This document shows, one piece after another, positions 50,944-64,000 of a stretch of DNA of 64,000 bases. Numbering within the stretch: the first letter of the stretch is position 1; each line of letters begins with the position of its first letter. The position numbers and the translations under genes were made by a program. A model generated the notes under the pieces. The model was given only the letters and a program-made list of their open reading frames with translations, searched no databases and was not told the DNA's origin. The stretch comes from Flectonema sp. DT1601 (lineage: Eukaryota; Euglenozoa; Diplonemea; Diplonemida; Diplonemidae). The DNA lies in assembly GCA_964019425.1 (NCBI GenBank), contig OZ025843.1:62001-126000 (forward strand), read 5' to 3'.

Positions 50944-52770
50944 TCAATTCAACACTTTGCATTTAACAGACCGTTCAAAGAGAGCTCTATTATTGTGAGG
51001 CAGCTGAACAGTTTTCAGGGCGCTGCATTTATTGAGGAAGCGCTCACCAATCTTCTTCACATCACTAAGACCTGAAAGGTCAAGAGAAGTGATTTCTGAA
51101 CACCCAGACAAGAAATTATTTTCAATACTAGTGACACTACTAAGACCTGAAAGATCAACAGAAGTGATTTTTAAGCACTCAGATAAGAAATTATTTCCAA
51201 TACTGGTGACACTTCTCAGACCGGAAAGGTCAAGAGTAGTGATTTCTGAACAATTAAACAAAAAACAATCTCCAATACTGGTGACACTACTAAGACCTGA
51301 AAGGTCAACAGAAGTGATTTTTAAACACTCAGACAAGAAATCATTTCCAATACTAGTGACACTACTAAGACCTGAAAGGTCAAGAGAAGTGATTTCTGAA
51401 CAATAATACAAAAAATCAAATTCAATACTGGTGACACTACTAAGACCGGAAAGGTCAAGAGAAGTGATTTCCGAACAATAACACAAACAACTATTTCCAA
51501 TACTGGTGACGCTACTAAGACCGGAAAGGTCAAGAGAAGTGATTTTTGAATATTTAAACAAAAAACAATTTCCAATACTGGTGACGCTATTAAGACCTGA
51601 AAGGTCAACAGAAGTGATTTCTGAACACTCAGACAAGAAATCATTTTCAATACTAGTGACACTACTAAGACCAGAAAGGTCAAGAGAAGTGATTTTTAAG
51701 CACTCAGACAAGAAATTATTTCCAATACTGGTGACACTTCTAAGACTGGAAAGGTCAAGAGAAGTTATTTCTGAACAATAAAGCAAAAAACAGTGTCCAA
51801 TACTGGTGACACTACTAAGACCTGAAAGGTCAAGAGAAGTGATTTCACACCCATACAAGAAATTATTTCCAATACTGGTGACACTACTAAGACCGGAAAG
51901 GTCAAGAGAAGTGATTTCTGAACATTTACGCAAGAAACCATTTCCAATTCTAGTGACACTACTAAGACCGGAAAGGTCAAGAGAAGTGATTTCCGAACAA
52001 TAACACAAACAACTATTTCCAATACTGGTGACGCTACTAAGACCGGAAAGGTCAAGAGAAGTGATTTTTGAATATTTAAACAAAAAACAATTTCCAATAC
52101 TGGTGACGCTATTAAGACCTGAAAGGTCAACAGAAGTGATTTCTGAACACTCAGACAAGAAATCATTTTCAATACTAGTGACACTACTAAGACCAGAAAG
52201 GTCAAGAGAAGTGATTTTTAAGCACTCAGACAAGAAATTATTTCCAATACTGGTGACACTACTAAGACCGGAAAGGTCAAGAGAAGTGATTTTTGAACAT
52301 TTATACAAGAAGTCATCTCCAATAGCAGTAACCTGTGAGATGACTGCGCTTTTGCAATTTGAATGGCGGAAGGAAATCCGTTTGGCATCTGAAGGAAGCA
52401 ACTCCTCGTCAATAGTGAGGCAACCATTCACCGAAAATGTGGGAGTGTCCAGACATAAATACTCCGTAACGTGGTCTCTGATCCAAAGAAGCAGCTTCTC
52501 CCTTTTTCTATCATCAACAAACCAACATTTACCGAAGATCCGAACAAGCTTCTCCCATATTTCCAACTCGCTGTTTGCACCCACTCCATGATCTGCTAGC
52601 CGATCACTGTCGCAAAGGGCATCACCAGCCAACGACAGTTCAACTTCCTCCAGATCGACATCCCACTCGCCAGCCGCTGCCGTCAACACGTCGCTCACAA
52701 CAGAATCAGCACCAACTGTGACTGACACCGCAGGGAATCCTAAATCCGGACAAGTCACGAAAACTTGCAT
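50944..52770 (-). CDS. Ubiquitin-like/leucine-rich-repeat protein, 17 repeats
   Basis: 608 residues. Residues 1-74 resemble ubiquitin: MQVFVTCPD at the start, VELSLAGDALCDSDRLADHG like RLIFAGKQLEDGRTLSDYN, and a closing SELEI strand. A ~85-residue linker follows. Residues 160-583 are seventeen repeats of about 25 residues, consensus ITSLDLSGLSSVTSIGNNFL plus SECSE, and the protein ends in a Lys/Arg-rich cap. Repeats 1-4 and 8-11 are nearly identical, so a block of four was recently copied. No signal peptide or membrane helix is seen, which fits an intracellular binding or adaptor protein. The ATG lies 37 nt after CTTTTTCTCTCTCAG. Ligands are unknown. Confidence 0.8.
   Translation of the reverse strand: MQVFVTCPDLGFPAVSVTVGADSVVSDVLTAAAGEWDVDLEEVELSLAGDALCDSDRLADHGVGANSELEIWEKLVRIFGKCWFVDDRKREKLLLWIRDHVTEYLCLDTPTFSVNGCLTIDEELLPSDAKRISFRHSNCKSAVISQVTAIGDDFLYKCSKITSLDLSGLSSVTSIGNNFLSECLKITSLDLSGLSSVTSIENDFLSECSEITSVDLSGLNSVTSIGNCFLFKYSKITSLDLSGLSSVTSIGNSCLCYCSEITSLDLSGLSSVTRIGNGFLRKCSEITSLDLSGLSSVTSIGNNFLYGCEITSLDLSGLSSVTSIGHCFLLYCSEITSLDLSSLRSVTSIGNNFLSECLKITSLDLSGLSSVTSIENDFLSECSEITSVDLSGLNSVTSIGNCFLFKYSKITSLDLSGLSSVTSIGNSCLCYCSEITSLDLSGLSSVTSIEFDFLYYCSEITSLDLSGLSSVTSIGNDFLSECLKITSVDLSGLSSVTSIGDCFLFNCSEITTLDLSGLRSVTSIGNNFLSECLKITSVDLSGLSSVTSIENNFLSGCSEITSLDLSGLSDVKKIGERFLNKCSALKTVQLPHNNRALFERSVKCKVLN
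51056..52317 (-). repeat. 75-bp tandem repeats encoding LRRs
   Basis: Successive copies of GTGACACTACTAAGACC (plus strand) are 75 bp apart. Their similarity is high enough that all three reading frames stay open for long stretches, producing spurious ORFs. One unit is 72 bp. Confidence 0.9.
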
Positions 52771-54896: not shown

Positions 54897-55059
54897 TCAA
54901 TTCAACACTTTACATTTAACAGACCGTTCAAAGAGAGCTCTATTATTTTGAGGCAGCTGAACAGTTTTCAGGGCGCTGCATTTATTGAGGAAGCGCTCAC
55001 CAATCTTCTTCACATCACTAAGACCTGAAAGGTCAAGAGAAGTGATTTCTGAACACTCA
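54897..55059 (-). CDS. 3' end of the second LRR gene
   Basis: Encodes the last repeat (SEITSLDLSGLSDVKKIGER..) and the cap ending RSVKCKVLN, one residue different from the cap of the gene at 50944-52770. It is cut off from the rest of the gene by the insertion that begins at 55060. The last ~20 bp (55040-55059) are the target duplication of that insertion. Confidence 0.8.
55040..55059. repeat. Target-site duplication, left copy, small element
   Basis: aagtgatttctgaacactca, repeated exactly at 55758-55777 on the other side of the 698-bp element. Confidence 0.85.
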
Positions 55060-55757
55060 AAAAAAATTAACCAGTGTTTAGGGGTTTGAATCCCATGGAT
55101 CCCGTCGCTCAGGCGGTCCGGTGGAGAACCGGGTAGGGCACTGTGAACGAGTTGCGGTCCAGGTGGCGTCGGAAGGCCACCGCACCAACAGATTTGTTTC
55201 TTCGCACAACAGTAGCTTGGAGACCGTAAGAGACCCAAGGTGGTTCACAACCGCTCGAACAACTGCGTGTGAAGGAACAAGATTGAAAAGAAAAGAATAT
55301 AAGAAAAGAAATGCCACACACAAAAAACGACGTAGTAAAGCAGAGAGGTAGGGGGAGGGATGGCCTCTTTCTCCACACATTGCATGGGAGCTCCCCGAGT
55401 AACTCGCGGGGCTGATACTGTTAATACATTTCAGGCGACCTGAACTTATAATCCCCCCATGCGTGAAAAGACTAAACGGGGGAAGTTTGAAGGAAATGGG
55501 GGTAAAGGGAAATCATGCCACTAAGGAAAAAATAAAAACCCGGTGGCCCCTGTGAGCTCTGGGTGCCTGAGTATCCCGGGCCGGATCACCTGACCTTCTG
55601 CTATGTTGTCCTTTTTTTTTAAAGGTTAGGCTACCGGAAAATAAAACGGGGGTAAAAGAATACACAGCAACAACAACAATACGTCAGCACTCTAGTTACA
55701 CACAAGGTGCATCCAGGTAACACCACGAGGAGGCGCGCTATCCGAGTTTCGTTACCC
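55060..55757 (-). mobile_element. 698-bp non-autonomous retroelement with HDV-like 5' end
   Basis: Bounded by a 20-bp target duplication. Read on the minus strand it begins GGGTAACGAAACTCGG and ends GGTTAATTTTTTT. There is no convincing gene inside; a 100-codon frame is probably chance. The 5' end folds like the LINE's ribozyme (annotated separately) and the insertion site in the LRR repeat is the same, so it may be mobilised by LINE proteins (inference). It carries little other sequence in common with the LINE. GC content is well above that of the surrounding DNA. Confidence 0.7.
55675..55757 (-). ncRNA. Candidate HDV-like self-cleaving ribozyme, small element
   Basis: Numbering from 55757: bases 1-7 GGGTAAC pair with 37-43 GTTACCT, with a G-U at the cleavage pair as in HDV itself. 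P3 is GCC/GGT (24-26, 34-36) closing loop TCCTCGT. GG (44-45) can form P1.1. GCAC/GTGC can form P4, followed by a TGACG that could supply the catalytic C. I could not draw a convincing P2, so activity is uncertain. Confidence 0.5.
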
Positions 55758-55852
55758 AAGTGATTTCTGAACACTCAGGCGAGAAATTATTTTCAATACT
55801 GGTGACACTATTAAGACCGGAAAGGTCAAGAGAAGTGATTTCTGAACAATTA
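55758..55852 (-). CDS. Internal repeat of the second LRR gene, between two insertions
   Basis: 95 bp of LRR coding sequence, just over one 75-bp unit, isolated between the small element and the LINE. Its two ends are the target duplications of the two insertions (55758-55777 and 55833-55852). Confidence 0.8.
55833..55852. repeat. Target-site duplication, left copy, LINE
   Basis: aagtgatttctgaacaatta, repeated exactly at 63597-63616. Confidence 0.88.
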
Positions 55853-55926
55853 TATATGTACCATTTTGAGTGCTGTCATTCAGGCTTGCTAGCACGGTGA
55901 GATGACGAGGCACTGGTTCGGCCAAC

Positions 55927-58900
55927 CTAAGTTAACCCCTTGTCCTGTGGTTCCCTTTCCGGGGTTTCCTCTGCTTTCGGTTTCATTTGTTTGGTGAAAC
56001 CTAATTTTAGAAGCGATGTGCTGGTTTGCATATCATGCTTCGTCGGCTGCTTCGCCCTCCTCGTCAACGTCCTTATAATTGGCCCGTGATGCTTTTTGTT
56101 GCAGCATTTCGTGGCAGTCCGTTGTTCCGGATCCGGATTCCGCTTGCAGTCGTTGCAGGGAGCCATCTCGTGGTGACGGCATCGGTGGTGGCTGTTTCTG
56201 CAACATTGCTCAGATCCTCTGCCGATCACTATGCAGACTGCACATGGAGTAAGCTTGTGCTTGCTGCAAAAGTCCCATATCGGTATTTGTCCATCTTCAT
56301 CCCCCAGAGTGTGATGGTTGTGGCAGCACTGGTAGATGGTGTTTCCGGCCCGTCGACAACTATTGCATTTCTTCTTGAAGTGTCCGTAGCACGTCGAGTT
56401 CATCGTTCCTTGTCCCTCCGCGATGCCCGGTCTCTTGACGACCTCGGGTGGCGGGCGTGTCGGTCCTCGCTCGCAGAGCTCCCTCCTCAGCTGTACGTCT
56501 TTTTCCTTTGATGGGAAAAGTCGTGCCGCGGTTATCCATTTCTCCGCTCTCCCTTCCCTCTCGCTCGAGTGCCTGCACTCAGTCTCGAAGCCGAATCTGA
56601 TTTTGTCAGCTTTTCCGTCGTTCGCCTCTTGGACCGTCCTCCGAATTGTGTCTACTGTTTCGTCTCCCATCAGAAAAGCTGGTCGTTTCTTCAAACCTTT
56701 CAGTACCGGGGCTCCTAGTGGACGTAAGGCTTTGTTGCTTCCTACGCAGTAGTCGGGAAAGGTTCTTTGTTCCTCGCCTTCTAAATGCTTGTGAACCAAG
56801 TTCAATCTTAGCATCAGTCCACACATGACGTCAGCTTTCTTCCCGGCGGCTCTGTCTTTGGTGCACTTCGCTACGTGGCCTTCGTGGACTGTGGTCGGTA
56901 TGTCAACCCCCGCATACGCTTCGAAGTCGATCGCTAATTCCAGGAAGGTGACTCCGACCCCGTCTGGCTGTCGAGGCCACTTCAGTTCCCTCAGGTAGCT
57001 CGCAAGCGCTAAGTACAAGGTCAATCCAAGGGCTTCGGGCCATTGGGTGTATACTGGCATGTACTTTTCCAGTTTGTTGTTGTATCGCATAACTACTTCC
57101 GGTTCCTTGTTCCCAGCGTATTCCACAACCGTCAGCCGTCTCTCCTCCAGTTGTTGGTAGTCGTCCCTGCGGAGCCTGATCCGTGCGAACATTCGTTGTA
57201 GGTCTCCGGTGAGCCCCGCCGGCAGTTCCACATTGTCGGGCTTGATGCCGAGTAGCCTCAGGCAATTGGGCCAATCGCTTCGAACTTGTAGCATCACTTG
57301 CGGATATTCCTGTCGGATTGTGTCATAAGCTCTGCAATCCCAGTTCACATGCTCGAGGGTCTCCGTCCTCTCTACGTCGTCAACCTCCTCGCAGTGCGCG
57401 CAGTTCTTGTTTCCCGCCTTCATCGAGCCAGTGTACACGTTGTCCAGGAGGCAGTGCTTCACTACTCCGCGCAGGTAGGGGTCGCCCTTTCCTTCCTTCA
57501 GGACCTTCAGGGTCTCTTTCCGGTCGATGCCCGCTTCAATACCTCTCAGGTTTACCCGTCTCGTTTCCGCAATTGTTTTGTTCCAGGTGAAACGTCTGCA
57601 CGCCTCTCTGACATCGTGCCGCCAGCGCCCCGCATCCAGCCTTCCGTGTTCGGTCGTCCCTCCCGGACCTTCGAAGACCGAGAAAGTTGACCATTCCCAT
57701 CCAAGTTCCTTCAGAGTACTCAGGGCGAGGCCGACTGGTCCTCTCGTCGCTTCAGTGTGCTCTTGCAGGTGTTCCCATACCCTGCGTATCCTCTCAGTCA
57801 GCTTCGGTAGCATTCTGGTGAGTGCAAGGAGTCTGTTGTACCTAATGTACGTCGCGGGATCCACACAATGTCCCTTGCAGAGTAGCGTTAGGCCCATGGT
57901 GTGCGACATCTTAGTTCTTTTCCCTCCAAGTTTGCGGAAAATCCCCGTTGCCATTGCTCTTCTCAGCAGTCCGAGTCGCGTCGCATCGGGATCGTACAGT
58001 GCCGTTCCGAAGAGCGCCTTGGGCATGACACTAGCTGCAGCTATCTGTTCCTTCGCTTGATATCTGAGCGGAAGTAATCGAATTCGCCTCGCTCTATCGA
58101 GCACTTCTTCCGTGATCCTCCCCATCTGCTTGGTGGTTCCTTTCATACTGAGGTGGCATCCCACGATATCGACACTGTCATCGAAGTCCAGTGTTGTGTC
58201 CCCCATTGTGATGTTGGTCTGGCCCTGGTCTCTGTTCGAGAACCACTTGCATTTCTGAGGCGCGAGTTCTTGTCCGGTCAGGGTGCAGAACTCCGCAACG
58301 ACTTCCACGCCTTCTTGTAGCTTCGTTCGTGATCCAAACAATGTCAGGTCGTCCGCATACGATCCGGGCGTCACATCGGCTTCCCTCTCGATTGCTTTGC
58401 TGAGTATCGAGCTCAGCGCATTGAAGAGCACCACGCTGAGCGGGCATCCTTGCAGTATTCCGTTGGTGGTGGCAAATTCTTCTCCGACGCCGCTCGGGAA
58501 CTTGAATCTCCTTCTGAGTCGCCGGTAGACATCCGTCACAGTTCTCAGGATCTTATCACCGAGGCCCAATTCCTTCACCAATTTCAGGAGGATGTCGTGC
58601 GGGATCAGGTCGAAACACTTCCTGAAGTCCGTGGTCACTCCAGCAATCTCTTCTCCGTAGAGAGTTGCGTGTTCCACGTCTAGTGCTATCTTCCAGCTGA
58701 GGTCGAGCGTAGATCTCCCCTTCCGGTAGCCGTACTGCCCGTCGTGAGCCCACTTCTCTTGCCACTCCATTACATCCTTTTCCATACGTATACAGCCCCA
58801 TAGCCTGTAAAGTGCGGATGTCACCGTAATGGGTCTCTGCTCCAGTGGTTTCGTCCCTGCCCCTTTGGGTATGGCCGACACCAGTGCCGTGAGAAGTGCT

Positions 58901-60582
58901 TCCGGCCAGTGTGTTCTCTCCACTATGTTGTAGAATTCCGCTATCATCTGAATCATGTCCTCCGGTAGCGACTTGAGCTCCGATATCCTGAAGCCGTCTA
59001 CCCCAGCTGCTTTGCGCGAGCTAGTCCTTCTGAGGGCTTTTGCAACGTCCTCCCCGGTGATATCTTCGCATCGCATCGGGTGTTCCTCGATGTAGTTGCT
59101 GTACCGTTCTTCGAACTTCATCCAGTCTGGTTCCGGGTCTGATAAGTACTTCTTGAGTATGGGGTCCCATGCCGCGTGCATGGCCTCATCCATCTCGGAG
59201 CAGTTGGCCGCCCAGCTTCCATCTGCCTTTTCCATCAGAACAGTCTTCGATTGCTCGACGTTCCTGATCCACTGGAAAACCTTCGTGCGGTCGTCATTCC
59301 AATTGTCGACAACATTCCGTTTCCACATGCGGATGCGTTCAGTTCGGAGCTTCTTGCTTTCTATCGCTTGCTCCTGTCTCGCTTGTTGTAGTAGTATCCG
59401 AAGCTCCTCCGTCTGTGGTATTTCGGATCCCGTCGTCGGATCGAGTTTTCGTAATTTTTTCCAGAGTTTCATTACTTCGTGGGACGGCACCGTCGGACCA
59501 TCGCGTTGCTTTGTGATTTTCATCACTTCCTCCAGAACACGTATCTTCTGCAGTCTTCTTCGCGTTTCCCTGCACGTCGCTCCTCTCCCGTCTTGTTTCG
59601 CCGCGTTCGTCCACATCACAGGCTCACGCTTCTTCCCGCGTCCCTTGTACTTGGCTGGGTTACTTATCTCCAGCTTTTCCGTCAGAAGGTATCTTTCGAT
59701 GATCTCTCCAAGCGCCTCCAGCATCTTGTCAGGATCTTCCGTCGCTACAGCTCGCGTCCAGTGGAGTTGCCTTTCGGCCTTCCCCTCACTCGGGTCCGTT
59801 GTCTCGGAGGTATCCAACTGTTTCGGTACTATCAGCCTAGGAGCCTTCTCGTTGTAGCGTGAGATGTTGAGCTTTCTAATGATGACCGGCTTGTGTGTCG
59901 GGATCAGCTCACTCTTATGCACATGGATCGTTGTGTCATTCGAGATTGCTGTCGCCGCCCCGCGGTTCATCAGAATAGCATCGATTCTACGAAGTCCTTT
60001 TCCCGCTTCGCTTGTCGGTGTCATGTTTCCCATCGAGACGGCGGCATCTATCCAGAGTCCGTGTGCGAAAGCCGACAGAAGCGCCGGCGATTCCGTTGTT
60101 TCGACGTTGAAGTCCCCCGCTATAAATACGGGAACATCACCCAGAGCTGCTGCTTCCACGAGCATCTCCGCAATCAACTCTTCCGTGTAGACCGCCGAAC
60201 GTACGTCTCCGTAGAACGAGAAAACGTGCAGTACCTTGCCATTTCCGTACGACACTCCCGCGTGTACGAATCGTCCTGTGTTGTCGAGCCGATCGTGTTT
60301 TATCCTTCTCACCGGTGTACCAGTGCGCGTCAAGATGGCCACGCCTCCAGCCGCCGTCCACGTCTTTTGCCCATCGGTTAGTAATTTGCACTCTAACCCG
60401 AACGTCGCTTCCCATCCTCTCTCACCGAGCTGTTTTTTCATCTGGCGTTGCTGTGGGCCCGTCAGAGAAGTTTCCTGTAGAGCTATCAGATCTAGGCTCA
60501 GATCTGTGATGGCATCTATTTTTCCTTCTAGTGTGGTGACATTGATTGTTCCCACGGTGAGCCCATCGATTCGTGGTCTCGG
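55927..60582 (-). CDS. LINE ORF2: endonuclease-reverse transcriptase with C-terminal Cys/His cluster
   Basis: About 1551 residues counted from the Pro released by the 2A motif; no ATG lies between ORF1's stop and the endonuclease. The APE-type endonuclease starts at TINVTTLEGK and shows LQET, GDFNVE, RRIDAIL and a THKPV histidine. The reverse transcriptase shows TTDFRKCFDLIPH (motif A), GILQGCPLSVVLFN (B) and SYADDLTLFG (C, catalytic YADD). Downstream is a C-x2-C-x13-H-x4-C zinc motif (CAHCEEVDD..LEHVNWDC). The last ~150 residues contain three Cys/His-rich units. I recognise no RNase H domain. It nicks the target and reverse-transcribes the element RNA. Confidence 0.9.
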   Translation of the reverse strand, partial: PRPRIDGLTVGTINVTTLEGKIDAITDLSLDLIALQETSLTGPQQRQMKKQLGERGWEATFGLECKLLTDGQKTWTAAGGVAILTRTGTPVRRIKHDRLDNTGRFVHAGVSYGNGKVLHVFSFYGDVRSAVYTEELIAEMLVEAAALGDVPVFIAGDFNVETTESPALLSAFAHGLWIDAAVSMGNMTPTSEAGKGLRRIDAILMNRGAATAISNDTTIHVHKSELIPTHKPVIIRKLNISRYNEKAPRLIVPKQLDTSETTDPSEGKAERQLHWTRAVATEDPDKMLEALGEIIERYLLTEKLEISNPAKYKGRGKKREPVMWTNAAKQDGRGATCRETRRRLQKIRVLEEVMKITKQRDGPTVPSHEVMKLWKKLRKLDPTTGSEIPQTEELRILLQQARQEQAIESKKLRTERIRMWKRNVVDNWNDDRTKVFQWIRNVEQSKTVLMEKADGSWAANCSEMDEAMHAAWDPILKKYLSDPEPDWMKFEERYSNYIEEHPMRCEDITGEDVAKALRRTSSRKAAGVDGFRISELKSLPEDMIQMIAEFYNIVERTHWPEALLTALVSAIPKGAGTKPLEQRPITVTSALYRLWGCIRMEKDVMEWQEKWAHDGQYGYRKGRSTLDLSWKIALDVEHATLYGEEIAGVTTDFRKCFDLIPHDILLKLVKELGLGDKILRTVTDVYRRLRRRFKFPSGVGEEFATTNGILQGCPLSVVLFNALSSILSKAIEREADVTPGSYADDLTLFGSRTKLQEGVEVVAEFCTLTGQELAPQKCKWFSNRDQGQTNITMGDTTLDFDDSVDIVGCHLSMKGTTKQMGRITEEVLDRARRIRLLPLRYQAKEQIAAASVMPKALFGTALYDPDATRLGLLRRAMATGIFRKLGGKRTKMSHTMGLTLLCKGHCVDPATYIRYNRLLALTRMLPKLTERIRRVWEHLQEHTEATRGPVGLALSTLKELGWEWSTFSVFEGPGGTTEHGRLDAGRWRHDVREACRRFTWNKTIAETRRVNLRGIEAGIDRKETLKVLKEGKGDPYLRGVVKHCLLDNVYTGSMKAGNKNCAHCEEVDDVERTETLEHVNWDCRAYDTIRQEYPQVMLQVRSDWPNCLRLLGIKPDNVELPAGLTGDLQRMFARIRLRRDDYQQLEERRLTVVEYAGNKEPEVVMRYNNKLEKYMPVYTQWPEALGLTLYLALASYLRELKWPRQPDGVGVTFLELAIDFEAYAGVDIPTTVHEGHVAKCTKDRAAGKKADVMCGLMLRLNLVHKHLEGEEQRTFPDYCVGSNKALRPLGAPVLKGLKKRPAFLMGDETVDTIRRTVQEANDGKADKIRFGFETECRHSSEREGRAEKWITAARLFPSKEKDVQLRRELCERGPTRPPPEVVKRPGIAEGQGTMNSTCYGHFKKKCNSCRRAGNTIYQCCHNHHTLGDEDGQIPIWDFCSKHKLTPCAVCIVIGRGSEQCCRNSHHRCRHHEMAPCNDCKRNPDPEQRTATKCCNKKHHGPIIRTLTRRAKQPTKHDMQTSTSLLKLGFTKQMKPKAEETPEREPQDKGLT
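56075..56405 (-). other. Triple Cys/His repeat at the ORF2 C-terminus
   Basis: Three successive units share C-x2-C, a spacer of 8-14 residues, CC, then HH: CNSCRRAG..QCCHNHH, CAVCIVIG..QCCRNSHH and CNDCKRNP..KCCNKKHH, with extra CxxH/HH between them. This is not the C2H2 pair described for L1Tc. A nucleic-acid-binding or target-recognition role is an inference. Confidence 0.65.
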
Positions 60583-60621
60583 TCCGGGGTTCCTCTCAAC
60601 GTCGCCAGCTTGTAGCAGGAG
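60580..60621 (-). other. 2A ribosome-skipping motif
   Basis: LLLQAGDVERNPGP matches the 2A consensus D(V/I)ExNPGP preceded by a Leu-rich stretch. It lies 20 codons after the ORF1 UGA in the same frame. By family knowledge the ribosome skips the final Gly-Pro bond, which would release ORF2 protein beginning with Pro. L1Tc uses a similar 2A. Confidence 0.9.
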
Positions 60622-60663
60622 ACGTCTCCGTGTCTCCGCCCAGTTCCTTCCGTCCTCCGCCGG

Positions 60664-60666
60664 TCA
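60664..60666 (-). other. In-frame UGA between ORF1 and ORF2
   Basis: ORF1 ends AATTGACCG: a UGA followed by C, a context known to leak in other systems. ORF1 and ORF2 share one frame with only this stop between them and no Met before the endonuclease. Read-through is the simplest way to make ORF2 protein; re-initiation is the alternative. Confidence 0.7.
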
Positions 60667-63596
60667 ATTCCGTTCCATGAACGCCATCAGTAGACGTTCC
60701 AGTCGGTCCAATCTCTCGTCCACTGAGCTGTTCTCCTTCTTTTTTGTCGACTTGGGCTCCTTTTTCGCTGTTGTCGTTGCGGTCGCTGCCTTCGTAGGTG
60801 CCGTCGTAGTTGGTGTTGGGTTGCTGGCTTCTAACCATAGGCGTTGTCCCTTCTTCTTCCCATGAAACTCGATGAACTCCAATCGAGTGTACCACTTTCC
60901 TCCCGTTCCCTCCGTCGGGTCACGCCTTTTCTCCGGTTTTGTCGGTGTCGCATTCGGGCGTTTGGTCTCCTTCCGTTTCGGGTCGACTTCCACCTTCTGT
61001 TTCCCAGCCTCCATCATGCACAGGACGCCATCCACCGTGATGGTTTCCTGCGTTCTCACCGGACCGCGGACGACCATCCATCGCATGCCGTTCCGTACGC
61101 CTTCCTTCGTCTTCCTCACTTCCCAGCCTTCCTTCGTGATCAGCCACTTGATCGCTTCGTCGGTGGTTGTGCCGATCGGGATACCCGTGATCTTTGTTTC
61201 CGGTAGCTTAGCCGGCAGGTGCAGTTTCTCCCTCGCCGCCGTTTCCTGCCAGCTGGTCACTCGAAGCCCGAGTCCGTGTTCGTTTACCACAAGTCCCAGC
61301 CCTCCATCGACTTCTACAGCCTTGTCCCGAGCGATTCCGAGTGTCTCGTCCTTCGGTAGCCAAATGACCGCCGCCTTCACTGCTCGTTCTTCTCTCGGAT
61401 CCTTTTCCTTGGTGAAGACGCCGTCCTTCCCCGATTCTCGGAGGAAGTTCTTCACTTCGGCTACCTTCACCCTGAGCATCACCGTGACGCTCTGGTCTCC
61501 GATCCGCGGGTTGTACGTATCGACATACCCCGGCATCTTCCTCAACTCTTCCGTTGCCCTGATCGGGGAGCGCTTCACTTCCGACCATCTCTTCTCTCCG
61601 GACCATTTTTTGTCCACTCGGACAACCATCTCCCTCGTGCTTTCCGTCCGCACGACGTCTGTTCCGGATGGTACAACCACTCTTCCCAGTGTTGTCATCC
61701 AGAGTTGCTTGAGAATTCTCTTCTCGCCGTCGCTCGTCGTCTCCTTAAGTACTACCTGTACTTTCTGCGCCGTGTCTGATGGTGGTTCCAGGGTTACTAG
61801 GGATAACGTTTCCCAGGCTCCCGGAGGTGTTCCCGACATCCTCTTCCTTGCCTCCTCTCTGGTGGTGAGGTGTACTCCCTTTGCACCGGCGTCGTACTGC
61901 TCCTTCGTGATCGCCATTCCCTCTGGCCAGTATTCCGGTGCCAGCGAGAGGTTATCCACCTTGAATCGCTCCTTGCGTGCTGCGTTCTCCCAGCTCTTCT
62001 GAGTCTGCGCCAGTCTCCCGGCCTCTCGGACCATCTGCTCTTGGATGGCCGATCGTCCGGCTACCTGCCCTTCATTGATTTCCTTCATCAGCTTCTTGCG
62101 TGAGGCGTCTAGCTCCCTCATACCGTCTTGGGGCAGCTTCACCGGTGGCGTTTGCTTCACTTCCGTGTTTGCTTCCTGATCAGGGGTGGTGTCCATCTGA
62201 TGTTCCTCTTCCTCTTCTCTCAGCGAGTTGAGTCCTCTGATCTGGACCCGTTCCGCTTCGAGTTCTAGCAAGAAACGTTCTTGCATCTCTCTCGCTTCCC
62301 GTCCCGCCGTTTCCTGCTGCCTCTTCGCCTCAGCATGTTGGGCCTTGAGTTCTTCTCTCAATCCGTCCAGTTGTTGTTGGAGAGTTCGGAGCATCTCGCG
62401 TAGTTCGCTTTTCTCCTCTCTCTCGCGCTTCAGTTCCTGTTGTAGTCCTTCGTAGTGGAAGGACTGCTGCTGCTGGGCGTAGGTGTCGTACGTTGCATAC
62501 GGTTGATGTTGCATGTAGTGTACGGGTTGCTGTTGCGGTTGTTGTTGCGGTTGTCGATGTTGTTGCAGTTGCAGTTGCTGTTGTAGTTGTTGTTGTTCCA
62601 GTTCCAGTTGTTGATGCTGTTGTTGTTGTCGTTGCCGTTGTTGTTGTAGTTCCAGTTGCTGATGTTGCGATTGCTGTTGCTGTTGCTCTAGCTGTTGCTG
62701 CTGTTGGTGTAGTTGCTGCTGTCCTCGGTTCACCTCTTCCTCACGCCGTTGGATCTCGTCTTCCTTCTGTTGGAGCTTTTGTTGTTGTTGGACTTTTTCT
62801 TGTCCAATCTGCTCCTTGAGCTTTCGGTGGAGGTGGTCCTTCTCATTCCTTAGCTGCTGATCCAGCTGGAGGTGGAGCCGTTCCTTCTCCGTCTGGAAGG
62901 ATTCCTTTTCCTTCTGTAGTTGTGACCGAGTCAAATGTGCTTGCTGTTCGGACTCGGCGTCCTTCTTCTGCTGCTGGCTTTCCAGTTGCTGTTGTCGTTG
63001 GCGGTATTGCTTCTCCAAATCCTTCTGTTGGTGCTGATGTTGCTCTTTGAGTTGAGCCTGTAGGTTTTGCTCCTTCTGGAGACTTTCCGTTTCCTTCAGC
63101 TGATGGTGGCTTTGCAGTTGCTGCTGTTGTTGGTGGTACTGACTTTGCAGTTCTTGTTGTTGGTGTTGGCGTTGCTGTTCCAACTGTTTTTCTTGTCCTT
63201 GAAGGTTGGTTTCCTTCTGGTGGTGGTGCTGCTCCATGGCCATTCTCTGTTGCCCCAGCCGCTGCTTCTCTTCCTCGATTTCGTCCAGCGACTCGAGTTT
63301 TTCCTTCTCGAGTTTCGCCAGCCGGCGTTCTTCCTTGTCCGTGCGGTCCTCGTCCCTGTCGCGAGTGTCGTCTCGCGGGCGTCGGTCTCTGCTGTCCTTC
63401 CTTGTTCCACCATTGCCATTCAAGGCATGGGCCAGTTTGTTTCTTTCTTTCTTCGATAGGAAACATCCAGTGTGTGGATGCTCTGGATGTGGTGGTTGGT
63501 GTTGATGGTGTTGGCATCTCTTGTGTTTGACACCGTCTTGTCGACCCCTATCGAAGTCGTCCGGGACCGCCGCGAGGAGGCAGGTGTCGTGATCCC
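60664..63596 (-). CDS. LINE ORF1: Gln-rich coiled-coil protein
   Basis: About 976 codons inside the element, open from its first base. Order: a basic His/Arg segment, a charged coiled coil (KLEKEKLESLDEIEEEKQR), a long Gln/His-rich coil built on CAG/CAA repeats (about 62500-63200), a second coil ending near REEEEEHQMDTTPDQ, then a ~400-residue Lys/Val-rich region of unknown fold and a short C-terminal leucine zipper (RLDRLERLLMAFMERN). It probably binds and multimerises on element RNA like other ORF1 proteins (inference). The first in-frame ATG is at 63243. Upstream, the frame runs unbroken into the host LRR sequence, so an LRR-ORF1 fusion is also possible. Confidence 0.8.
62490..63240 (-). 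repeat. CAG/CAA-rich low-complexity tract
   Basis: Imperfect trinucleotide repeats encode poly-Gln blocks within the ORF1 coil (densest at 62520-62800). Such tracts vary in length between copies and cause frame-shadow ORFs on both strands. Confidence 0.85.
63529..63596 (-). ncRNA. HDV-like self-cleaving ribozyme at the LINE 5' terminus
   Basis: 68 nt, numbered from 63596. P1: 1-6 GGGATC with 29-34 GGTCCC. P2: 9-14 GACACC with 63-68 GGTGTC. P3: 16-18 GCC with 26-28 GGC. L3: 19-25 TCCTCGC, the same as in genomic HDV. P1.1: CC of L3 with GG at 35-36. P4: 38-41 CGAC with 52-55 GTCG. J4/2: ACAAGAC, with C57 in the place of catalytic C75. Cleavage would fall exactly at the junction of host DNA and element, as in R2 and L1Tc. 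This releases the element RNA from a host transcript. Confidence 0.85.
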
Positions 63597-63616
63597 AAGT
63601 GATTTCTGAACAATTA
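63597..63616. repeat. Target-site duplication, right copy, LINE
   Basis: aagtgatttctgaacaatta, identical to 55833-55852. It starts at the same base of the LRR repeat unit as the small element's duplication. Confidence 0.88.
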
Positions 63617-64000
63617 AACAAAAAACAATCTCCAATACTGGTGACACTACTAAGACCTGAAAGGTCAAGAGAAGTGATTTCTGAACAATTACGCAAGAAA
63701 TTATTTCCAATACTAGTGACACTATTAAGACCTGAAAGGTCAACAGAAGTGATTTCTGAACAATAAAACAAAAAACAGTGTCCAATACTGGTGACACTAC
63801 TAAGACCTGAAAGGTCAAGAGAAGTGATTTCTGAACAATTACGCAAGAAATTATATTCAATACTAGTGACACTACTAAGACAGGAAAGGTCAACGGAAGC
63901 GATTTTTAAACAATTACGCAAGAAATTATATCCAATACTAGTGACACTATTAAGACCTGAAAGGTCAACAGAAGTGATTTCTGAACACTCAGACAAGAAA
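63597..64000 (-). CDS. 5' part of the second LRR gene, continues beyond the window
   Basis: About five and a half 25-residue repeats (for example EITSVDLSGLNSVTSIGNNF), closely related to the gene at 50944-52770. The frame is open to the window edge and runs without a stop into the LINE's ORF1. Variants such as CLKIASVDLSCL show modest divergence. The start codon and any ubiquitin-like domain lie outside the window. Confidence 0.78.

Follow-up and report, generated by a model that had tools for sequence, protein, structure and literature searches.

The window analysed here, the whole 64,000-nt stretch of Flectonema sp. DT1601 contig OZ025843.1, carries on its minus strand a gene made of BspA-type LRR repeats that is interrupted by a LINE and, on the far side of the LINE, by a SINE-like element (Table 1). 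The host gene reaches its Met start beyond the end of the window (seen in locus L084), where a further SINE intervenes, and contains at least three elements: the upstream SINE (L031, L084), the LINE and the SINE at 55757. The upstream SINE stops the host frame, so any host transcript at the LINE locus would be that of a broken LRR gene. The preliminary description of this DNA had expected the host transcript to be an LRR mRNA; the LRR identity of the host gene (PF13306) holds, but the frame is stopped and the gene no longer intact. The start sequence of the host family, MQVFVTCPDLG..., recurs across copies. By eye, the N-terminus of the family looks ubiquitin-like. A Pfam search found no ubiquitin domain in the uninterrupted paralogue at 50944-52770, and among 120 relatives listed some carry a ubiquitin domain (PF00240) beside LRR_5. 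For the proteins encoded in the window a single named relative turned up, an adenylate cyclase of Diplonema papillatum, with 37% identity across 20%, a match too weak to point to a group.

Table 1. Features of the interrupted LRR gene, its elements and its paralogue in the window.
Feature	Position	Strand	Remarks
Host gene, 5' side, BspA-type LRR repeats (PF13306)	63597..64000	-	In frame with ORF1
5' target site duplication of the LINE, TAATTGTTCAGAAATCACTT, in LRR codons ...CSEIT	63597..63616	-	Adjoins base 63596
LINE (non-LTR retrotransposon), ~7.7 kb	55853..63596	-	Tail ...GGTACATATA, last bases ambiguous with the duplication
HDV-like ribozyme (predicted), first 68 nt of the LINE	63529..63596	-	Predicted cleavage 5' of 63596
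ORF1 frame, continuous with the host LRR frame and open across the predicted ribozyme	60664..63597	-	Ends in TGA 60666-60664
2A-type motif DVERNPGP	60580..60603	-	Same frame, downstream of the TGA
ORF2 frame	55927..60663	-	APE-type endonuclease PF03372, reverse transcriptase PF00078, Cys/His-rich C-terminus (by eye)
3' copy of the LINE target site duplication	55833..55852	-	Repeats TAATTGTTCAGAAATCACTT
SINE-like element, 698 bp, in the same LRR codon	55060..55757	-	20-bp duplications 55777-55758 and 55059-55040
Second HDV-like fold (predicted), SINE 5' end	55685..55757	-	Pairing; descriptor; Rfam
Host LRR gene, 3' end after the SINE	54897..55059	-	Ends in TGA
Uninterrupted host paralogue, 608 aa	50944..52770	-	Shares the start and end sequences of the host gene; its many LRR repeats are all potential targets

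Between its junction with the host gene and 55927, the LINE is a continuous frame of 2,557 codons, interrupted only by one TGA (60666-60664) ahead of the terminal stop. An in-frame ATG is absent from the first 92-121 codons in all 17 distinct copies that were aligned. ORF1 is long and glutamine-rich and gave no significant Pfam domain of its own, and the Pfam search of the LINE returned no RNase H family at E ≤ 1. Two transcript-derived EukProt proteins, P0002 and P0003, are 59 and 56% identical to the LINE over ORF2, and P0003 has DVEENPGP at the place corresponding to DVERNPGP. P0001, the representative of a 22-sequence cluster, begins at the first start codon past the TGA, a start position which hints that a TGA ahead of the 2A motif may be common among LINE copies.

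The first 68 nt of the LINE can be drawn as an HDV-type fold on the minus strand (LINE element position n corresponds to window position 63597-n). As had been proposed, all of the HDV helices are pairable: P1 is GGGATC/GGTCCC with one G-U (63596-63591 with 63568-63563), P2 is GACACC/GGTGTC (63588-63583 with 63534-63529), P3 is GCC/GGC (63581-63579 with 63571-63569), P1.1 is CC/GG (63577-63576 with 63562-63561) and P4 is CGAC/GTCG (63559-63556 with 63545-63542). The two sequence marks named together with the helices were found as well, L3 being the HDV-type loop TCCTCGC (63578-63572) and J4/2 (ACAAGAC, 63541-63535) containing a candidate catalytic C at 63540. Judged by pairing alone, the helix order is that of a double pseudoknot with predicted cleavage 5' of P1. 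This cleavage site had been placed at the host/element boundary, and base 63596, at which the fold starts, is indeed the exact junction of the LINE with the host LRR gene, as defined by the 20-bp target duplication that adjoins it and is repeated at 55852-55833.

The rarity of the fold was assessed with descriptors, in a strict and a relaxed form, that fix helix order, helix lengths and the P1.1 pairing and specify no L3 letters. Over the ~128,000 window-strand positions, the strict form found two sites, the LINE start at 63596 and a site at 52312 (plus strand), while the relaxed form found six, two of which are the exact LINE and SINE starts. Dinucleotide shuffles of the LINE 5' end passed neither the strict nor the relaxed form (0/20,000 in each case), and those of the SINE start passed the relaxed form once in 20,000. 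On 670,416 strand bases, comprising the window and the genome loci with overlapping loci counted more than once, the relaxed descriptor gave 17 distinct sites, five of them LINE or SINE starts and 12 others. The window and shuffle figures are somewhat flattering, since the descriptor and its relaxation were devised with both elements in view and the SINE start fails the strict form.

Searching the whole window with Rfam at the gathering score gave no match, and at E ≤ 10 a 1001-nt stretch gave no HDV match, only three unrelated weak ones. When a 117-nt stretch was searched, RF00094 (HDV_ribozyme) was the better of two matches and aligned along the whole 68-nt stretch, with the model P1 starting at 63596 and some non-standard P1 pairs marked. 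The covariance-model hit put forward earlier as a check on the fold was thus obtained in part: the HDV family came out on top in this search, but its score of 16.5 bits lies far under the curated cut-off of 50, which the LINE fold did not reach. The E value of 1.6 covers 4227 families and the chosen 117-nt stretch, and by simple arithmetic would be ~4e-4 for the HDV family alone. Nested free-energy folding gives the LINE 5' end no exceptional stability (z 0.42), and P1 is absent from the minimum-energy structure. Taken as nested structures, the two halves of the HDV fold fall short of the nested minimum by ~9 kcal/mol each (-13.5 vs -22.7), and those of the SINE fold reach -11.3 and -10.3 compared with a minimum of -19.7. 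Nested folding cannot score a double pseudoknot, so that these energies neither prove nor exclude the HDV fold.

A search of the genome (89.5 Mb in 92 contigs, repeat counts being lower bounds) returned at least 23 matches to the LINE 5' region (L001-L023). The ribozyme reading had been tied to the pairing being kept in other genomic copies, and in most of them it is. Twelve of the 23 5' ends (L001-L011 and L020) match the window over all 68 nt, L012 has one change, which breaks one P2 pair, and six (L013-L018) have two changes, one in J4/2 and one costing the innermost P2 pair only. The structure is lost in the remaining four, through an internal deletion in the block (L019) or degeneration (L021-L023). 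L011 and L012 keep the usual first base although their flanks are unrelated.

Alignment over 1.4 kb gave 17 distinct sequences from L001-L018, with L019-L023 left out, and was used to ~340 nt, beyond which it is disturbed by indels. Among these sequences the 68-nt block has three variable columns and no variable third-codon position, compared with four variable third positions in 69-136 and 11, 9 and 11 in three windows of 137-340. Between L001 and L005, none of 15.3 synonymous sites is changed in the block, whereas 23 of 47.3 are changed at 137-350, together with seven non-synonymous changes per 165.7 sites. In all seven copy pairs chosen for comparison the 15.3 synonymous sites of the block show no change, against 3 to 25 synonymous changes at 137-350, indicating that the block is held at the RNA or DNA level. 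No protein constraint was seen in the next 21 codons (69-136), and codons past 136 are under protein-level selection, even upstream of the first ATG. Since no two-sided compensatory change was seen, conservation alone cannot separate a ribozyme from a promoter or another DNA function. The earlier reading of an HDV-like ribozyme at the 5' end of a LINE lying in an LRR gene is supported by descriptor rarity, boundary position, the genome copies and the fixed synonymous sites. We conclude that both the fold and the conservation of the 68-nt block are well supported, and that self-cleavage is predicted from them.

The insertion target has a 16-nt consensus, TGTTCA(C/G)AAATCACTT, which encodes the ...CS(E/Q)IT end of an LRR repeat. 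Matches with at most four mismatches flank 18 of the 23 LINE 5' ends and 29 of 31 SINE copies, whereas the background is 23 of 101,768 16-mers (window positions 1-50900, both strands). The LINE 5' ends missing the target are L010, where 2 nt are lost at a site that is otherwise LRR, and L011, L012, L019 and L020. At the other end of the element, 35 LINE 3' ends were found in the genome and 30 examined; a target match lies within 40 nt downstream in 19, the best sequence has five mismatches in two and six to nine in nine, and several of the non-matching ends belong to short, 5'-truncated copies. For 12 LINE copies the two ends could be paired by position: in eight the duplication spans 16-24 nt and contains one mismatch or none, two have 9-nt duplications and two have none. 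The target belongs to a repeat of ~75 nt of which every host gene contains many, so that numerous sites are available in each. The LRR-repeat preference, the ribozyme-like start of the SINE and the frame relation to the host all go beyond the preliminary description.

The SINE begins with GGGTAAC, contains the core CCTCCTCGTGG and has a 3' tail that differs from that of the LINE. Its start differs from the LINE start in letters and can be drawn as the same type of fold, with P1 GGGTAAC/GTTACCT, P2 TAGCGC/GTGCTG, P3 GCC/GGT, L3 TCCTCGT, P1.1 CC/GG and P4 ATGCAC/GTGTGT; P2 and P4 have alternatives. The sole Rfam match at E ≤ 10 was RF02682, another HDV class (15.5 bits vs a cut-off of 44, E 0.54), which begins at the first base of the SINE with the model P1 starting at 55757. 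In the genome search for the SINE, 40 of 47 candidates were scored, and the loci retrieved contain 31 distinct copies in all. Duplications were sought up to a limit of 20 nt in 30 copies and measured 16-20 nt in 23 (two at odd length), the other seven having 10-11 nt or none.

Columns with any change number 10 in SINE positions 1-69 and 4-7 in each of the next six windows; the copies are young and their 5' block is conserved to no greater extent than other parts, so that it offers no proof of constraint. Several variants are nevertheless consistent with the fold, namely A40G (P1 U-A to U-G), T18C (P2 U-G to C-G) and the diverged copy L081, in which a P2 G-U becomes A-U and P4 is extended by 2 nt inserted on either side, which pair with each other. 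In contrast, L044 and L068 each break one P1 pair, and the second SINE copy in L038 has one P1 pair broken and P4 deleted. Pairs were counted over P1, P2, P3 and P1.1, P4 being omitted because its register slips, in 9 of the 10 distinct variants found among the 31 copies, the second L038 copy being left out. This gave 98.8% paired cells compared with 27-49% in slid versions, with three one-sided consistent changes and no two-sided one, and a shuffle control that does not separate the fold. Other pairings can be drawn, with P2 as ACTC/GAGT or, as Rfam implies, with P4 as GCAC/GTGC and P2 as GATA/TATT; YAGCRC/GTGCTG was provisionally preferred, since the T18C variants and L081 fit it better. A combined LINE/SINE alignment was discarded because P1 was misaligned. 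A third family with the CCTCCTCGTGG core was also seen; P1 was looked for in it and none was found.

We consider it highly probable that the 68 nt are an HDV-like self-cleaving ribozyme which defines the 5' end of an APE-type, LRR-targeting LINE and releases it from a host co-transcript in the manner of R2. The R2 scheme, as set out in PMC3774820 and PMC5035012, has an HDV-like ribozyme release the element from a co-transcript. On this model, transcription of the host LRR gene would include the LINE; its target inside a gene and its sense orientation here make such a LINE/host co-transcript possible. The predicted ribozyme would cut the RNA at the junction to yield a template for retrotransposition whose 5' end is exact and carries a free hydroxyl (5'-OH), and reverse transcription would be primed at a nick in another LRR repeat, giving rise to the ~20-bp duplication. 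The SINE, with an HDV-like start of its own, uses the same LRR target and probably the same enzyme, as the shared target and the duplication length suggest that the LINE enzyme moves it.

The relation of the LINE frame to the host raises the question of a further role, in which the ribozyme acts as a switch, uncleaved RNA serving as an LRR-ORF1 fusion mRNA and cleaved RNA as the template for reverse transcription. The target fixes the codon phase, and hence places ORF1 in frame with the host protein. Frames were walked at all 23 loci and start sequences inspected at nine; the host frame is open from a family-type Met start into the element at seven (L004, L005, L007, L008, L014, L015 and L017), while at the other 16 no in-frame family start occurs within 1.5 kb upstream and most are stopped. 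The SINE that stops the host frame upstream at this locus and the ~21 codons without protein constraint after the ribozyme both count against a switch, and R2 reportedly manages without a host start. We therefore regard the switch as unlikely.

Since any DNA or RNA function would leave synonymous sites unchanged, the conserved block could instead be mainly an internal promoter or a protein-binding DNA site, with the HDV-like pairing secondary or also used, as in Pr77 of trypanosomatid L1Tc. A precedent exists in that Pr77 is described, in PMC4035085, as promoter and ribozyme in the same 77 nt, and L011 and L012, lying off target, are unlikely to rely on transcription of an LRR gene. A promoter alone, however, explains neither the full double-pseudoknot pairing at the exact start of the element, which 0 of 20,000 shuffles reproduced, nor the recurrence of this fold, in another sequence, where the SINE begins. 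A block that is mainly promoter thus seems to us quite improbable.

Selection might also act on the encoded peptide, WDHDTCLLAAVPDDFDRGRQDGV, which is read in frame from the host LRR into ORF1. The frame is open, and further into ORF1 selection at the protein level is evident, even ahead of the first ATG. Conservation as protein is nonetheless already disfavoured by the 0/15.3 synonymous sites changed in 7/7 pairs, by the lack of third-position variation in 17 copies and by the next 21 codons (69-136), which are free of protein constraint, and we give it a very low probability. Much the same can be said of a chance pairing within a GC-rich 5' end. Such a coincidence would account for the sub-threshold Rfam scores and the unremarkable nested fold, and the descriptor was devised after the elements had been seen. 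Yet the descriptor sites are rare and well placed, a second element has the same fold, and the changes in the diverged SINE L081 (P2 G-U to A-U, paired insertions in P4) are consistent with it, so that coincidence is hardly credible.

The preferred reading, an R2-like release by an HDV-like ribozyme, agrees with R2 in the type of fold, in predicted cleavage at the host/element junction and in a site-preferring element that occupies a multicopy gene. R2 has a restriction-like endonuclease and targets 28S rDNA, whereas the LINE described here has an APE-type endonuclease (PF03372) and targets the codons of an LRR protein gene, and on both counts it falls outside R2. The SINE core CCTCCTCGTGG is the same as the conserved sequence of R2Dm, CCUCCUCGUGG, in the form quoted in PMC5035012. 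The identical L3 of the LINE is no sign of common descent, since the active sites of R2 and HDV are argued, in PMC3774820, to have converged on the same letters.

In content, the LINE resembles L1Tc/ingi of trypanosomatids, as far as can be judged from its sequence, and we do not claim membership of that clade. Both combine an APE endonuclease with a reverse transcriptase and have a 5' HDV-like ribozyme (here predicted) in the LINE and in short partners, which for L1Tc/ingi are NARTc/RIME/SIDER (PMC4035085). The 2A motif of L1Tc, D(V/I)ExNPGP (PMC4981915), likewise has a counterpart in DVERNPGP. The differences are that here no RNase H domain was found, ORF1 is long and glutamine-rich, a single TGA precedes the 2A motif in this copy, and the LINE and SINE starts differ in sequence. 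The RHS (retrotransposon hot spot) genes of trypanosomes offer a parallel on the host side: according to PMC7563717, a LINE and a SINE (ingi and RIME) share one site in a protein multigene family and so create interrupted copies. The target described here differs in being a ~75-nt repeat found many times per gene, and the family is that of BspA-type LRR proteins. LINEs led by a ribozyme, ribozyme-bearing LINE/SINE pairs and insertion hot spots in protein families are all known individually. What appears new is the LRR target, a predicted ribozyme lying in a frame continuous with the host protein, and a second predicted ribozyme in the SINE. Among the matches listed in the open-licence literature, judged by titles and the openings of abstracts, we found no LINE aimed at LRR genes, and the combination of a tandem LRR codon target with a ribozyme inside a host-continuous frame was not found among them either.

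The best-known cases of R2-type release through an HDV-like ribozyme come from rDNA, and the same arrangement appears here, by prediction, in a LINE and a SINE of protein genes. In this setting the ribozyme must be accommodated in a reading frame common to element and host. The low Rfam scores suggest that protist HDV-like ribozymes can fall far under current covariance-model cut-offs. The system would provide a test of whether 5' ribozymes generally accompany insertion into transcribed multicopy genes, as well as of how elements without an ATG come to be translated.

Between ORF1 of the LINE and the in-frame 2A motif with ORF2 there is a single TGA (window 60666-60664), and the base directly after it is a C. 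This stop may be read through, may be followed by reinitiation or may be specific to this copy. At loci L075-L083 we found very short (~60 nt), 5'-truncated LINE tails, some located at LRR targets and others elsewhere, with duplications visible at some of them.

Further features in the window and at two other loci
Feature	Location	Strand
CCTCCTCGTGG-type core and surroundings	window 50697-50640	-
CCTCCTCGTGG-type core and surroundings	L033, near base 286	minus strand of L033
Partial relative (84% over 52 nt)	window 54749-54703	-
Reading frame beginning GEGLLGGECGWAALNF...	L084, frame from base 3	minus
Tandem ORFs, mostly ~570 aa	window 9704-45978	long ones all minus

A TAA ATCAAATCATGT context is common to the ends of 11 of the 13 tandem ORFs listed; no Pfam family was detected in the two that were searched. 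In L084, the locus where the host LRR gene continues past the window, the tabulated frame looks on visual inspection like the N-terminal domain of two transcript-derived relatives of the LINE ORF2, P0002 and P0003; in P0003 this domain matches Josephin weakly (E 0.012). The L084 frame perhaps belongs to a further LINE family or encodes a peptidase of the host.

One of the CCTCCTCGTGG-core-type sequences lies directly 3' of the intact LRR gene. Around both cores and the partial relative, no partner for the first ribozyme helix, P1, was found. Possibly, these three sequences represent a SINE family that has decayed or a third one.
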